Shown one piece after another: positions 1,652 to 9,925 of a stretch of 9,979 nt of DNA (position 1 is the stretch's first letter; each line of letters starts with the position of its first letter). Under the pieces are notes generated by a model, which did no database searches, was not told where the DNA came from, and worked only from the letters and a program-made list of their open reading frames with translations. The translations under genes were made by a program, and so were the position numbers. This DNA is from Candidatus Latescibacterota bacterium (GTDB lineage: Bacteria; JAAXHH01; JABIQT01): NCBI GenBank assembly GCA_018667995.1, contig JABIQT010000568.1:1-9979 (forward strand), written 5' to 3'.

Positions 1652-1667
1652 AAGGAGTTCTGTATCT

Positions 1668-1730
1668 ATGAGAGATGGGCGACAACAAAGTTCGTCCCAG
1701 CTCCAGCCCTGCATCCACCCCATAGTCTAA
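1668..1730 (+). CDS. Putative 20-residue leader peptide
   Basis: A short ORF of 20 codons plus TAA, beginning ATG AGA GAT and rich in Gln and Ser (QQSSSQLQ), ending in CIHPIV. It has a good Shine-Dalgarno site, AAGGAG (1652-1657), 10 nt before the ATG. Its stop codon (1728-1730) lies inside the left arm of the hairpin at 1721-1749, which holds the ribosome-binding site and start codon of the following gene. That placement is the main reason to believe it is translated: a ribosome reaching the stop would open the hairpin and could re-initiate 16 nt further on. There are no runs of a single regulatory amino acid, so classical amino-acid attenuation is not indicated. It could be a chance ORF. 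No homology can be claimed at this length. Confidence 0.5.
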   Translation: MRDGRQQSSSQLQPCIHPIV

Positions 1731-1749
1731 TGGGAGGAATTAGACTATG
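1721..1749 (+). promoter_or_regulatory. Hairpin with RBS in the loop and AUG in the stem
   Basis: A perfect 11-bp inverted repeat, CATAGTCTAAT (1721-1731) and ATTAGACTATG (1739-1749), separated by a 7-nt loop, GGGAGGA (1732-1738). The loop is the Shine-Dalgarno site of the next gene, and the last three bases of the right arm are its ATG start codon. In mRNA this would pair the AUG while leaving the Shine-Dalgarno site in a tight loop. The left arm contains the stop codon of the leader ORF, a layout that fits translational coupling or attenuation. As duplex DNA the same palindrome could be an operator for a dimeric repressor. The sequence shows the symmetry directly; the mechanism is inference. 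Confidence 0.7.
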
Positions 1750-2940: not shown

Positions 2941-4101
2941 TTAACTACTGACACACCGCTCCTGCAACCATTCCCTGGTCACCTCGATTCCAAATCCAGG
3001 CGCGTCACTCGGCGTCAAATATCCGTCGTCTATCACGGCAGTCCCAGGCAGATACACCATTTCTTCGAGAGGTACACCCGGTGGCGACACGCCCTGGGAT
3101 CGTTCCCCCCAGCATGCGGAAGACATCGCATATACGAGATGCTGGCCGTAGGGATTGTTCATAGACGCATGGGGAATAACCGAAAGTCCAGCAGCCTCCG
3201 CCATCTGGCAGATCTTTACCCCTGCAGTTATACCGCCAGCCCAAAGCACGTCCGGCTGCAGAATGTCTACGTAGTTCTCGGTGATAGCATGATTAAACGT
3301 CGTCGGTAAATACCAGTGCTCGCCAGAAGCCAACGTCTGCCAGGGCAGACGCCTTCGAATGGCGCCGTAGCAAGGATAATTTTCCGGTGTCACATAGTCT
3401 TCCAGCCATTTGAGCCGGTATGGTCGCAGCGTTTCAGCGAGCCTCACAGTATACTCCTCATCCATGGATAGCCAGCAGTCCAGCATGAGTTCAGCGCTGT
3501 CACCTACCAATTCTCGGGTGTTACTGACCAGTTCTTCGTTCTTACGCAGTCCCTCAGCCCCGTCCTCAGGTCCCCAGGGCGTGAATATCTTGGTGGCGTT
3601 GAAGCCCAGTTCCAGGTACCACTCCGTGTCATATCCCGTGGCATAGCAGAAAATGCGGTCCTTCTGCGGGCCCCCCAACAGTTCATATACAGGTTTCTCC
3701 AGGATCTTGCCCTTGAGATCCCACAGTGCTGTATCCACGGCGCTGATGGCATAGCTGGCCAGGCCTGTTCCACCGTATGGCGCAGTCAGGCGAACCATCA
3801 TGTCCCAGGCGCGACCGGTAGCCATGGCGGACTCGCCCACCAGATTGGGCGCGAAGTGATCGTTTATGACGGCCACCACAGGAGATCCATAGATAGTGAT
3901 TCCAAGTCCCCAGGTCCCGTCCTCCGCTGTTGCCACACACGCCACGCCCTGCCACGGTGGCTGTCCGGCCGACCTCAATCGCTGGTACCGATCTTTGGGC
4001 TTTCTCATGGTAACAGCCTGACTGATACTGGGACGGCGAGGTTTCGTCTTCGGATGTGGCGTGAAGTCCACCTCGAATGCCTCGATCGATGTAATCTTCA
4101 T
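2941..4101 (-). CDS. Rhamnonate-dehydratase-like enolase-superfamily enzyme
   Basis: A 386-residue mandelate-racemase/muconate-lactonizing family protein, full length for the family. It is closest, from memory of E. coli L-rhamnonate dehydratase (RhmD), to that subgroup: shared signatures are YATG (153-156), the TPWGPEDG segment (174-181), LMLDCWLSMDEEY (205-217), LKWLED (230-235), SGEH (259-262), LQPDVLWAGG (281-290), IPHAS (309-313) and APGFGIEV (367-374). Expected metal ligands are D208, E234 and E261; the likely catalytic dyad is H311 with D284. The reaction would be Mg-dependent dehydration of a sugar acid to a 2-keto-3-deoxy acid in the cytoplasm. The N-terminal capping region, which sets substrate choice, differs from E. 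coli RhmD, so another deoxy or acid sugar is possible. The start at 4101 has GAGG nine nucleotides upstream. It stands alone on the minus strand; a mutarotase and SDR lie about 4-5 kb away. Confidence 0.85.
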   Translation of the reverse strand: MKITSIEAFEVDFTPHPKTKPRRPSISQAVTMRKPKDRYQRLRSAGQPPWQGVACVATAEDGTWGLGITIYGSPVVAVINDHFAPNLVGESAMATGRAWDMMVRLTAPYGGTGLASYAISAVDTALWDLKGKILEKPVYELLGGPQKDRIFCYATGYDTEWYLELGFNATKIFTPWGPEDGAEGLRKNEELVSNTRELVGDSAELMLDCWLSMDEEYTVRLAETLRPYRLKWLEDYVTPENYPCYGAIRRRLPWQTLASGEHWYLPTTFNHAITENYVDILQPDVLWAGGITAGVKICQMAEAAGLSVIPHASMNNPYGQHLVYAMSSACWGERSQGVSPPGVPLEEMVYLPGTAVIDDGYLTPSDAPGFGIEVTREWLQERCVSS

Positions 4102-4841: not shown

Positions 4842-5678
4842 ATGAAACATAATTTAGACGCGCAACAGTTGAGCTTCTTCGAAACTTTCGGATACCTGGG
4901 CTTCCCCGGACTAATGGCAGATCGTGTGCAGGAGATCATCAGTGATTTCGAGGAAGTCTGGGCAAGGCACGGCGGTGGGCACAACGGTCAGGCGCATGAC
5001 GGCACGGCTCGGTCTTGCATCGCACAATTCATAGATCTGCACGAACGGCTGTCCACACTGCTTGACGATGAAAGAATCAGGGGCATCGCAACGAGCCTCG
5101 TCGGTGACGATTTCAATTACATGGGCAGCGACGGCAATTACTATGCGGGGGACACCGGATGGCACTCTGACGGTTGGCACCCGGAACAACGACATATCAA
5201 AATCGCTTTCTACCTGGATACCTTGACCCGGGAGACGGGCTGTCTGCGGGTGATACCCGGAAGTCACCAGATCAACGATACGTTTGGAAAGACCTTACAG
5301 GAACACATCCGCGGAAGCGATTCTGCCTGGGGAATCTCGGGCGAGGATGTGCCGGCGGTGGCACTGGAGACGGCCCCGGGCGACATTGTCTGTTTCAATC
5401 ACAATACCAAGCACGCGGCTTTTGGCGGTAGTGAGCGGCGACGCATGTTTACCATGAATCTCTGTCAACGCTATCCGGAAGATCGCCTCAGCGACCTGCG
5501 CGAGTACATCGGTGGTGGCGCCCGATTCTGGGTTGAGGAGGGATATGGCCAGGCCATGATCCGTACCGCGTCTCAAAAACGCCTCAGGCACTTGGAACAA
5601 GTGATGGAAAATGACGATCACCTGCCGGAACTGACGCGAAAGGCCAAACTAAAGATGACGGAGCCATCCCGGGGATAA
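4842..5678 (+). CDS. PhyH-family Fe(II)/2-oxoglutarate dioxygenase 1
   Basis: A 278-residue phytanoyl-CoA-dioxygenase-like protein. The N-terminus (QQLSFFETFGYLGFPGL) is the usual PhyH opening. The metal triad is visible: H108 and D110 in GWHSDGWH, with H191 (or H187) in FNHNTKHAAFGG as the distal ligand. R200 or R201 just after is the expected 2-oxoglutarate carboxylate contact. RVIPGSH (136-142) is the standard turn between strands. These enzymes use O2 and 2-oxoglutarate to hydroxylate small substrates; ectoine, phytanoyl-CoA and natural-product intermediates are known examples, so the substrate cannot be told here. The start at 4842 has only GGTGG upstream. It is followed after 87 bp by a second PhyH gene on the same strand, plausibly one operon. 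Its ETGCLRVIPGSH motif differs from the LGPTE-type motif of the two neighbours, so it belongs to a different subgroup rather than being a recent duplicate. Confidence 0.85.
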   Translation: MKHNLDAQQLSFFETFGYLGFPGLMADRVQEIISDFEEVWARHGGGHNGQAHDGTARSCIAQFIDLHERLSTLLDDERIRGIATSLVGDDFNYMGSDGNYYAGDTGWHSDGWHPEQRHIKIAFYLDTLTRETGCLRVIPGSHQINDTFGKTLQEHIRGSDSAWGISGEDVPAVALETAPGDIVCFNHNTKHAAFGGSERRRMFTMNLCQRYPEDRLSDLREYIGGGARFWVEEGYGQAMIRTASQKRLRHLEQVMENDDHLPELTRKAKLKMTEPSRG

Positions 5679-5765
5679 CTACTCACCACTGGGTGTGCTG
5701 CAACGCTTCATCGAGAAACCAATGGATATGTCGTAAACTCCACCAACGGTTTCAGGAGGATGTTA

Positions 5766-6548
5766 ATGAACACGCAGGAAGAACAGCTCACGCAATTTCA
5801 CAAGGACGGATATTTGATCCTGCCAGAAGCATTATCCGAGACGTTCGTATCGGAGCTGCGGCGTGGTGTTGAGGCATCATTCTCAACGCCAGACGAAGAA
5901 TCCGAGATGTATGGTATGCAGGAGCTCTGGCGACCGAAGATGTTCGAACACGGCGAGGAATTCGAGGCATTGGTGGATCATGGCGACACCGTAGACCTGG
6001 TCGAGGCCATTTTGGGAGATGACTGCCACCTGATTGCCATGAGTGCTTTGCGAACTGGAACAGGCACAGAGATATCAACCTGGCACGCCGATGAGACGGT
6101 CCGCTTTCCGCGACCACTGGGCGTTCCACTCGATCCCCGTATCGAGGTGCCCTGTTTCATCGTTAACCTGAACTACTATCTCTGCGATGTGGATCAAGAG
6201 CTGGGGCCCACCGAATTCGTTCCGGGCAGTCACAGGAGCGGGCGCCAACCACAGGAAAGCGATAATGATGGAAACGGAAATCCAGCCTACGAGGGGCGCC
6301 AGGCGGTAAGTGCAGTAGGCAAAGCGGGCACCGCAGTAATGTGGCATGACCAGACGTGGCATAGAGGTGGCATTAACCGGTCAAATGGCCGCTATCGATG
6401 GGTTCAGCAGGCCCCTTACGGTCGGCGATACATTGCCCAACGGTTTTACCCGTTCGTGAACTATCACATGCCGGAGGATATCCTGGCCCGGGCCAATCCA
6501 CGCCGAAAACGACTTCTCGGAGTCCATGGACCAGGGGCGTACGGTTGA
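5766..6548 (+). CDS. PhyH-family Fe(II)/2-oxoglutarate dioxygenase 2
   Basis: A 260-residue PhyH-like oxygenase. It opens with LTQFHKDGYLILPEAL and carries H107 and D109 in TWHADE, LGPTEFVPGSH (147-157), and the distal H199 in QTWHRGG. An Arg about ten residues later (R205, R209 or R211) is the candidate 2-oxoglutarate contact. A Gly/Asn/Asp-rich insert, SDNDGNGNPAYEG, sits between the PGSH turn and the distal strand and may form part of a substrate lid. The start at 5766 is chosen because AGGAGG (5754-5759) lies six nucleotides upstream; an ATG at 5760 would abut that site and is unlikely. The C-terminus is rich in Arg and Gly. It is probably co-transcribed with the first PhyH gene. Its TGA stop touches the stop of the opposing third PhyH gene. 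Substrate unknown. Confidence 0.85.
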   Translation: MNTQEEQLTQFHKDGYLILPEALSETFVSELRRGVEASFSTPDEESEMYGMQELWRPKMFEHGEEFEALVDHGDTVDLVEAILGDDCHLIAMSALRTGTGTEISTWHADETVRFPRPLGVPLDPRIEVPCFIVNLNYYLCDVDQELGPTEFVPGSHRSGRQPQESDNDGNGNPAYEGRQAVSAVGKAGTAVMWHDQTWHRGGINRSNGRYRWVQQAPYGRRYIAQRFYPFVNYHMPEDILARANPRRKRLLGVHGPGAYG

Positions 6549-6557
6549 TCATGCCCC
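6534..6557. terminator. Hairpin at abutting stop codons, possible bidirectional terminator
   Basis: The stop codons of the two converging PhyH genes are adjacent and form the palindrome TGATCA (6546-6551). They sit in the loop and 3' arm of an inverted repeat with arms GGGGCGT (6534-6540) and ATGCCCC (6551-6557), seven pairs including one G-T, and a 10-nt loop. A bidirectional transcription end here would make sense, since neither gene has room for its own terminator. There is no T-run on either side, so an intrinsic terminator is not proven. Confidence 0.35.
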
Positions 6558-7379
6558 ACCGAATCTACGAAAACCTTCAGGTTTCCACAGGATGGGATGG
6601 CCCGGAGGCCACTCCCGTCCATCGTTGATCGCATCGAAATCCGAAGTCTTGTCACAGAGCCAATAAAACATACGAGCGGCATCGTACCATTCCCGGAATT
6701 GCACGCGGAATGTGGGACCGTCCATGGCATAGTGTGGACTATGATCGTGCCCAAAATCAAAATTGGGATCTGCGATCCAGTCTCGTGACGGCGGTGACAT
6801 ACGCCAGTAGCAGTATTTGAGCATATTTCGAAGGCCCGTCGCCGTGGAGCGACCCCGTCGATGCCAGACGTTGTATGCCGTAATGAAAATCGAGCCGGCA
6901 GGCGCACTTGTCTGTACCGCACCACGCACTCGGTCGTAATGTGCCATGTAGTGCTGCAGGGCAAATATGAAATGGGATCCCGGTAGTACCTCCGTGGGCC
7001 CCAGTTCAAGTGGCGTGTCCTGAGGATAGTAGAACACCTGTAGATGATTGACTTCATATCCCATGCGCGACCCGCCGTCCCGGTGCCAACTTTGAGCGTC
7101 CGCCGGGCATTCGACTCGATGATTGGCCATGCCTGTGGGTAGCGCGAAGTTGGCGCCAAGCAGGGCCCGCACGGCATCTGCTGCTTGCGGATTGAGCAGG
7201 ACGTGCTCGATGAAGCGATCTTCCTGGAGCAGATCGGTGGGTTCATGGGTTTCGAGGAATTGGGTTACCCACTGGTTGATCTCGTCCGGTACGACGGATT
7301 GATACATCAGGTAGCCGTTTTTGCAGAAGGACAGGACATCTTCGTCGTTCATGGTGTTGACTACTTGGGATGAGTCCAT
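6549..7379 (-). CDS. PhyH-family Fe(II)/2-oxoglutarate dioxygenase 3
   Basis: A 276-residue PhyH-like oxygenase on the minus strand. It shows the family opening (VLSFCKNGYLMYQSVVP), H99 and D101 in SWHRDGG, LELGPTEVLPGSH (124-136), and the distal ligand H173 in VWHRRGRS, with R184 as the likely 2-oxoglutarate contact. The last third contains many aromatic residues (REWYDAARMFYWLCD), which could line a substrate pocket. The LGPTE-PGSH motif is shared with the second PhyH gene, though the rest differs strongly, so they are relatives rather than recent copies. The ATG at 7379 was chosen; GAGAG upstream is a weak ribosome-binding site. The in-frame ATG at 7352 has none. A TATAAT lies 47 bp upstream of the start. 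The gene converges on the second PhyH gene with no intervening base. Substrate unknown. Confidence 0.85.
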   Translation of the reverse strand: MDSSQVVNTMNDEDVLSFCKNGYLMYQSVVPDEINQWVTQFLETHEPTDLLQEDRFIEHVLLNPQAADAVRALLGANFALPTGMANHRVECPADAQSWHRDGGSRMGYEVNHLQVFYYPQDTPLELGPTEVLPGSHFIFALQHYMAHYDRVRGAVQTSAPAGSIFITAYNVWHRRGRSTATGLRNMLKYCYWRMSPPSRDWIADPNFDFGHDHSPHYAMDGPTFRVQFREWYDAARMFYWLCDKTSDFDAINDGREWPPGHPILWKPEGFRRFGGA

Positions 7380-7525: not shown

Positions 7526-7540
7526 CTGATATATAGAGTC

Positions 7541-7765
7541 GTTTAGAGATTGCCACTTTCTTTAGAAGAAAGTGGCGCAAAGAATCGCACGGATTACAAG
7601 GCGTTGGTGGAGTGACGTCTGGTAGTATGAGACGACTTAGGATCACCTCCACTCCCCGCTCCTCGCTGCGCGACCGGAGGACTTCGCTTTGCGATGTCCT
7701 CAAATGGCCACCCCGCATGGCCTCCTGATAGTGCGGCAATGGTTTATCGCTGAGTAATCTGTGCA
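7541..7765 (+). repeat. Structured dispersed repeat, copy B
   Basis: The best-folded copy of the three-copy element. The edge hairpin has 11-bp arms, GCCACTTTCTT (7552-7562) and AAGAAAGTGGC (7566-7576), around a TAG loop. The closing stem pairs 7587-7597 with 7754-7764 (one G-U), then GCG (7601-7603) with CGC (7748-7750). Inside are: GTGGAG-TGA (7607-7615) with TCA-C-CTCCAC (7643-7652), extended by CGTCT (7616-7620)/AGACG (7630-7634); TCGC-TGC-GCGA (7663-7673); GAGGAC-T-TCGC-TTT-GCGA-T-GTCCTC (7677-7701), with a central T-T mismatch; and GGCCA (7706-7710)/TGGTT (7740-7744), enclosing CCGCA (7713-7717)/TGCGG (7732-7736). It lies 147 bp upstream of the gene at 7912 in the same orientation. It could be a cis-acting leader, a free RNA or a non-autonomous mobile element. 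Confidence 0.85.
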
Positions 7766-7911
7766 TCAAGGAGTGAGGTACTGAATCGCAGCGGTATGTA
7801 CCAGATGTTATTATCACCTTCGGAATCGAACACATTGCCTAACACGGGACCGTAAACCAACTACTTTCCGCTGACAGAGCAGCACGACATTTTCGTATTG
7901 GAGACCATAGT

Positions 7912-8329: not shown

Positions 8330-9127
8330 TTATTCCCAACTGGCGATGGGTGCCTGGATGCCCTCTTCAATCCACAGGAACCTACCGGTCACACCGGCGC
8401 TCTCCTCGCCCACCAGTCGCAGAACTAGATCTGCCGCTTTGCCCGGCGGATCCCCGCCGGTTTCGCCTACCCACTTTACCCATGCCCGATAGCCGTCCCC
8501 TTCCGCTCCCAACTTATCAGCTTCGTCACGAATAGCGGCCCACATGTCAGTCTTTACCTCTCCGGGATGAATTACGTTAGCAGTCACCCCACTATCCTGA
8601 AGCTCCGCCGCCAGATGCCTGGTGAACTGGTTTAAAGCCACCTTACTGGTTCCATAGGCGCTGTTCAATGGTCCTGGCGGATGCAGCGCGGCCGCAGAGG
8701 AAACGTTTACGATCCTTCCGAAACCGGCATCAACCATGTCCCCCATAAACGCCCGACACATCAAATAGGGAGCGATCGTATTGATGGTGATGGTCTCTAT
8801 CCACCGATCCGGATCACTGTCCCCTATCAACTGAATGGGCCCGAAGACCCCGGCCGCGTTTATGAGTATATCGATGCGACCGATCTGGTCTGACACAGTT
8901 TCCTTGACAAGGGCAACGCCGGATTGCGTACTCAAATCTGCTGGGATCGCGCAGGCACTCCCCCCGGCCTCAACGATGAGTCGCTCAGTTTCTGCCAGTT
9001 GATCAGCAGTCCTGGCAATGAGAGCGACCTTCACGCCGTGTGACGCGAGACGGCATGCGACCTCGCGACCCACACCTCGCCCGGCCCCCGTCACCACAGC
9101 CGCTTTTCCTTTTAGTGTCGACGACAT
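8330..9127 (-). CDS. Short-chain dehydrogenase/reductase (classical SDR)
   Basis: A 265-residue classical SDR with all hallmarks: cofactor loop TGAGRGVG (13-20), D64 in PADLS, NAAG (90-93), N116, catalytic S144 in NVSS, and Y158/K162 in YGTSK; HPGEVKTDM (187-195) is the usual segment after the active site. R39 in LIART at the end of the second strand suggests NADP(H), though not firmly. It would oxidise an alcohol or reduce a ketone in the cytoplasm. It lies three nucleotides after the mutarotase stop on the same strand, with its Shine-Dalgarno site (GGAAGGAAGG) inside the end of that gene, so the two form a tight operon. By context it may be an L-rhamnose (or related sugar) 1-dehydrogenase. 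A role on another substrate, as with many FabG-like SDRs, is equally possible. Confidence 0.85.
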   Translation of the reverse strand: MSSTLKGKAAVVTGAGRGVGREVACRLASHGVKVALIARTADQLAETERLIVEAGGSACAIPADLSTQSGVALVKETVSDQIGRIDILINAAGVFGPIQLIGDSDPDRWIETITINTIAPYLMCRAFMGDMVDAGFGRIVNVSSAAALHPPGPLNSAYGTSKVALNQFTRHLAAELQDSGVTANVIHPGEVKTDMWAAIRDEADKLGAEGDGYRAWVKWVGETGGDPPGKAADLVLRLVGEESAGVTGRFLWIEEGIQAPIASWE

Positions 9128-9130
9128 ACG

Positions 9131-9460
9131 CTATCCTTCCTTCCCGGCCCGCGTCTCGCAGCGGAATATCTCACGAAGATCTCCAGAATCCACGATGCCA
9201 TCGTCCCGAAACTCCATATAAGGCCCCATCACCTCTGCCCACTTGTCGTGGATCTCCGAATGCCATAGCCGGTCCCAGGCCTCTTCGTCGACAATCTCCG
9301 AAAACAGGAATAGCACCGGATCCTGTTCGAAAGTAGTGATGGTCGCAATGCCACACTTCTCGATCTCCGCCACCAGCTCCGGCCAGATCTCACTATGATG
9401 CCGCGTATATTCTGCCAAAGCACCGGGCTTGAGTCGCATGGTGAAAGCTTTTCGCAACAT
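9131..9460 (-). CDS. rhaM: L-rhamnose mutarotase
   Basis: A 109-residue protein closely following E. coli RhaM: MLRKAFTMRLKPGA at the start, EYTRHHSEIWPEL (17-29) with H22 and Y18 in the expected active-site positions, and a C-terminal EIFRCE near the family's end. It interconverts alpha and beta L-rhamnose, easing use by a following enzyme. The E. coli WW pair before YM is here a single Trp (KWAEVM), a variation that might alter sugar preference. The ATG at 9460 is preferred: it matches the family start and has AAAGG six nucleotides upstream. The open frame reaches 9607 but the extra 49 residues are not family-like. It is the first gene of an operon with the SDR. Upstream lie a strong hairpin (9638-9658) and repeat copy C. 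Confidence 0.9.
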   Translation of the reverse strand: MLRKAFTMRLKPGALAEYTRHHSEIWPELVAEIEKCGIATITTFEQDPVLFLFSEIVDEEAWDRLWHSEIHDKWAEVMGPYMEFRDDGIVDSGDLREIFRCETRAGKEG

Positions 9461-9630
9461 GAGTAGCCTTTCATATTTGAGATGAATTTGCCGTAAAGCG
9501 CAACGATCCACAGATACCGGATGTTTCTGTAGACGGATGGCTCCAGGAAACACATGAGAGAAACAGACCCGATCTATCAATATTTGTCCCGGCACCACAA
9601 ATGCCAAGTTCCGCAGCGCCGCCCAACCCT

Positions 9631-9705: not shown

Positions 9706-9925
9706 TGCACAGTTTACTCAGCGATAGACCGCCGAAAACTTACCGCCGCCAACCCGGGGTGGCCGTTTGGCGATTGCGAAGCAAACGCCCTGTCGCGAAG
9801 CGAGGGGACTGGCCGGGCGGCGTTCATAAGTCACTTCAATTCCCCAGCCGAACATCCAGTCACGCATTGTAAACTGTGCGATTCTTTGCGCTACTTTCTT
9901 CTAAAGAAAGGAGCATTCCTTATAG
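9706..9925 (-). repeat. Structured dispersed repeat, copy C (inverted)
   Basis: Third copy, on the minus strand. Edge: CTATAAGGAATGC (9925-9913), then a hairpin with 7-bp arms CTTTCTT/AAGAAAG (9894-9910). Closing stem: 9863-9879 with 9707-9723, fully Watson-Crick. Its seventh base is changed in both arms relative to the other copies, so pairing is kept. Inner stems: GACTGG (9807-9812)/CCAGTC (9856-9861); TCGC-TTC-GCGA (9793-9803); GGCG-T-TTGC-TTC-GCAA-T-CGCC (9769-9789), repeating the T-T mismatch of copy B with different stem sequence; and GGCC (9761-9764)/GGTC (9727-9730). It lies about 245 bp upstream of rhaM and in the same orientation, so it could be part of the leader of that operon. 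Confidence 0.85.

Follow-up and report, generated by a model that had tools for sequence, protein, structure and literature searches.

Attenuators of the cat-86/cmlA type keep the Shine-Dalgarno sequence (SD) of the controlled gene paired, and their leader is a stalling peptide that is much shorter than the 20-codon frame discussed here. Our locus resembles these attenuators in having one hairpin directly ahead of the gene, with a leader frame that extends into its left arm, but differs in that its SD lies in the loop and its leader is unlike theirs. The leaders of erm genes work with an inhibitory stem-loop which conceals the SD until a drug-stalled ribosome exposes it (PMC5118997). A further group of systems relies on translational coupling, either by RNA unfolding or by termination-reinitiation (reviewed in PMC12548453; PMC6728339), and the RNA-unfolding model has been established for other gene pairs (PMC12548453).

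The DNA analysed here, referred to as the window, is a whole contig of 9,979 bases from a genome assembly of 6.06 Mb in 1,165 contigs (85% complete). Similar to ermC and ermB, it has a short SD-led ORF upstream and a hairpin across the next initiation region, yet it shows one hairpin instead of a set of alternative stems, the SD is free in the loop rather than sequestered, and neither a stall motif nor a resistance gene is recognised. The resemblance to translational coupling is closer in that the upstream frame ends shortly before the start codon, the SD lies in between and a predicted inhibitory structure is placed where a ribosome would open it; in contrast, known pairs mostly consist of two genuine genes lying side by side, whereas here a 20-codon ORF devoid of a coding signal takes the upstream place. 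Our preferred reading, to which we assign a probability of roughly 0.4, is that the inverted repeat forms a cis-acting mRNA hairpin which lowers initiation at position 1747 and is possibly relieved by ordinary translational coupling.

The inverted repeat and its predicted fold

The elements lie in a divergent intergenic region between a minus-strand gene for a phosphorothioated-DNA-binding HNH restriction endonuclease (522-1439; NF045808 in NCBIfam, E 4.4e-90) and two plus-strand ORFs of 157 aa (1747-2220) and 180 aa (2324-2866). On the plus strand, direct reading reveals a putative SD with a 6-nt match, AAGGAG (1652-1657), 10 nt 5' of the ATG at 1668 that opens a putative leader ORF of 20 codons (1668-1730; MRDGRQQSSSQLQPCIHPIV, followed by the stop). 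The stop codon TAA (1728-1730) falls within the left arm (CATAGTCTAAT, 1721-1731) of an 11-bp perfect inverted repeat, which was identified by inverted-repeat search and folding, and is separated from the ATG of the 157-aa ORF by 16 nt, a stop near a start as in coupled pairs. The 7-nt loop GGGAGGA (1732-1738) is the SD of this ORF, and the last bases of the right arm (ATTAGACTATG, 1739-1749) are its ATG (1747-1749), with Watson-Crick pairs at 11 of 11 positions. An earlier sequence-only reading had described exactly this arrangement, and all its coordinates hold on re-reading, including the identity of loop and SD, the closing of the right arm with the ATG and the position of the leader stop inside the left arm.

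When the window was shuffled 40 times with its dinucleotide content preserved, inverted repeats of at least 11 bp with a loop of 3-12 nt did not occur (<0.03 per window), those of 10 bp appeared 0.075 times per shuffle, and apart from one within a dispersed repeat, the repeat at 1721-1749 is the longest short-loop inverted repeat of the window. For the genomic background we sampled 100 contigs (505 kb) of the source genome together with 294 automatically chosen gene starts. This real sequence contains 14 inverted repeats of at least 11 bp, hence the inverted repeat by itself is unexceptional. Unlike the repeat alone, its position at a start codon is exceptional, as arms of at least 10 bp were found between -60 and +20 at none of the 294 sampled starts. 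Arms of 8 bp or more (8-9 bp) are present at four of them, which is about chance level by our own arithmetic; start-codon hairpins are no habit of this genome, and this speaks against reading the repeat as an mRNA hairpin. One look-alike in the sample, with 8-bp arms, the SD in the loop and the ATG in the arm, is located within a long ORF and presumably arose by chance. The sample counts suggest that roughly 0.1-0.7 start-codon hairpins would arise per genome of this size even if translation control were not under selection. Such a configuration should thus be met with when many genomes are scanned, and does not by itself prove function. The assertion that the alignment is unlikely to be coincidental is favoured by the lack of a comparable stem among the 294 starts, but softened by this expectation.

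By prediction, the hairpin cages the start codon in its stem. All transcript lengths folded without constraints contain it in their minimum-energy structure, and it is the dominant feature of the predicted fold; in transcripts of 143 and 151 nt, the predicted unpaired probability is ~1.0 for the SD in the loop and 0.00-0.02 for the AUG, while in a shorter transcript from 1712 the second and third bases of the AUG are partly released (0.23-0.38). Folded alone, the 29-nt hairpin reaches -12.1 kcal/mol (z = -6.0), and the fold of the whole 161-nt region is of ordinary stability (z -0.35), a point against the hairpin reading. If pairing is forbidden in 1711-1741, which models a ribosome of generally accepted footprint size with the leader TAA in its A site, accessibility of the AUG rises to 0.91-0.95; the same modelled footprint extends to ~1740 and overlies the SD at 1732-1738. 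Among other RNA elements, we rejected an intrinsic terminator since no T-run or terminator-like site follows the stem, and judged an RNA thermometer unlikely from the stability of the stem at 37 °C. No Rfam family matched in the window up to E = 1.

The ORFs and their genomic neighbourhood

The 157-aa ORF is coding by its codon usage: it scores 0.238 bits/codon compared to a 5th percentile of 0.10 and a median of 0.19 in the sampled genes, and the other two forward frames score negative. Together with an in-frame TAG at 1741-1743 just before the start and a GGAGG ~9 nt 5' of the ATG, this gene-like usage makes the start at 1747 credible. The ORF has no match in Pfam, NCBIfam, PADLOC or the PDB and a single sub-threshold PHROG match (E 0.037), and a structure prediction made from the single sequence gave an unusable model (pLDDT 36). 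We found no homologue in 59 related or diverse genomes, in 16 species genomes of the phylum, among phages or plasmids, or in IMG/VR and the genome-contig scan, where the genome- and viral-contig scans reach close relatives only. The locus DNA (1440-2330) likewise has no match in relatives of the order, and neither the leader nor the hairpin has a homologue in any collection searched. With no family or homologue for the 157-aa ORF, nothing marks this downstream gene as a resistance gene.

In the 180-aa ORF, residues 1-113 are 34-39% identical to small proteins encoded on plasmids of Vibrio, Klebsiella and Enterobacter, and the C-terminal part is predicted to form a long helix. The plasmid relatives are encoded directly 5' of an AAA-family ATPase gene, which does not follow the 180-aa ORF on the same strand here, and they have no annotated neighbour upstream that resembles the 157-aa ORF, so that synteny is of no help for the latter.

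The leader is less gene-like than the 157-aa ORF. Its codon usage (-0.095 bits/codon) is the same as the average for equally long out-of-frame windows (-0.095), corresponding to their 50th percentile, and a score this low is reached by only 3.8% of in-frame windows; given the small number of 20 codons, this result is compatible with translation, yet lends no support to it. When the leader region is shuffled, an ORF as strong as the leader, with an ATG, a 6-nt SD match and a stop between -25 and 0, appears in 0.2% of cases, or in 2.6% if the definition is slightly loosened, with both figures being post hoc. Across the 294 starts, SD-led short ORFs ending at most 25 nt before the gene are not enriched (7 versus 6.4 in shuffles). 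No plus-strand promoter-like site was seen in 1400-1740, a weak argument in that the promoters of this phylum may deviate from the consensus. The search for a paralogous leader returned nothing but chance matches of 19 and 24 bases, and reading of the peptide disclosed no stall motif and indicated no ligand. As a real gene, the leader is thus unsupported by anything independent of its position, and a translational switch controlled by it is possible but unproven.

Several further observations concern the surroundings of the locus. A partial dndC lies on another contig (C1138) of the genome that also carries the HNH gene. Phosphorothioate-dependent HNH restriction enzymes cut phosphorothioated DNA, so the co-occurrence is odd if both genes come from one strain. 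The window also harbours three copies of a dispersed, apparently non-coding repeat of ~220 nt that begins with an 11-bp hairpin (60-280 and 7540-7770 on the plus strand, 9706-9918 on the minus strand), and contigs C493 and C926 also carry it, as does C439 with two copies spaced 340 nt apart. In a genome of the same order and another family, seven places match a core of ~43 nt around CACTTTCTTTAGAAGAAAGTGGCGCAAAGAATCGCAC with 91-100% identity, and this core was not found in 13 other relatives searched. Finally, three genes of the phytanoyl-CoA dioxygenase family are clustered in 4842-7379, near a mandelate racemase-family gene (2941-4101), an SDR gene (8330-9127) and an L-rhamnose mutarotase-like gene (~9131-9463).

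Alternative explanations and the proposed mechanism

The sequence would look no different if it were a DNA palindrome or a coincidence rather than an mRNA hairpin. The repeat could serve as the DNA operator at which a dimeric repressor controls the 157-aa ORF, the divergent restriction gene or both, with the SD in the spacer by chance; the perfect symmetry of the 29-bp dyad, its location between divergent genes and an overlapping minus-strand promoter-like pair (TTGACA-18-TAGACT, 1753-1724) would suit this idea. However, finding 3 promoter-like pairs in this region is compatible with the chance expectation of 1.3, and a search allowing up to 3 mismatches yielded no further copy of the hairpin in the genome or in 14 relatives of the order. 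Additional half-site-like matches at 1618-1636 looked promising by eye and were rejected as chance, as the best of them is reached by 25% of shuffles. Altogether, we regard an operator as an unlikely explanation. A neutral or coincidental repeat, with translation of the ORF unaffected by the stem, is in our view rather improbable: this genome contains one repeat of 11 bp or more per ~36 kb and the look-alike within a long ORF illustrates how the pattern can arise, but the exact register, which places the SD in the loop and the AUG where the stem ends, and the missing counterpart among the sampled starts argue against it.

Another proposal is that the leader encodes a dedicated regulatory peptide, and that translating it, or stalling on it, governs the opening of the stem as in translational attenuation. 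Its ATG with a 6-nt SD, the stop within the arm, the rarity of equally good ORFs in shuffles and a geometry recalling cat-type leaders, where the reading frame enters the hairpin, fit this proposal, which we nevertheless consider doubtful, because the codon usage is that of off-frame sequence, comparable short ORFs are unenriched at gene starts, no known stall motif is present, and the SD is exposed beforehand and overlain by the terminating ribosome. Still less probable, and in our opinion quite improbable, is a leader switch of new geometry, in which an always exposed SD in the loop and a caged AUG, released when a ribosome terminates within the arm, would control an orphan gene beside a phosphorothioate-DNA restriction gene.

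Under the preferred reading of a start-codon hairpin, the mRNA of the 157-aa ORF would present its SD openly in the loop while the AUG is tied up in the closing pairs, and independent initiation at 1747 would be weakened by this pairing. The stem would open while the left arm is covered by a ribosome or just after the ribosome has moved off it; alternatively, a 30S subunit captured by the loop may melt it. Provided that one RNA spans the region and the leader is translated, the two frames would behave as a normal coupled pair, with the stop 16 nt 5' of the start and the SD in between. The idea that a ribosome finishing the leader melts the hairpin and frees the start is mechanically possible with regard to the modelled AUG accessibility, but it is limited by the footprint covering the SD and by the weak standing of the leader itself. 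Since the terminating ribosome would cover the SD, a second ribosome would not be offered this site, and relief would have to follow termination, either through reinitiation by the same ribosome or through loading of another one before the stem refolds. Relief only after termination is the logic of ordinary translational coupling (PMC12548453) and not that of erm leaders, and the comparison with erm genes drawn from the sequence at the outset is not borne out, as the SD is unpaired in the loop and would be covered rather than freed by a ribosome at the leader stop.

If real, the hairpin represents a single instance, at one unreplicated locus, of an already known kind of control. If it is functional, it would be a compact form of start-codon caging with an exposed SD, which could separate SD capture from entry of the AUG in bacterial initiation.
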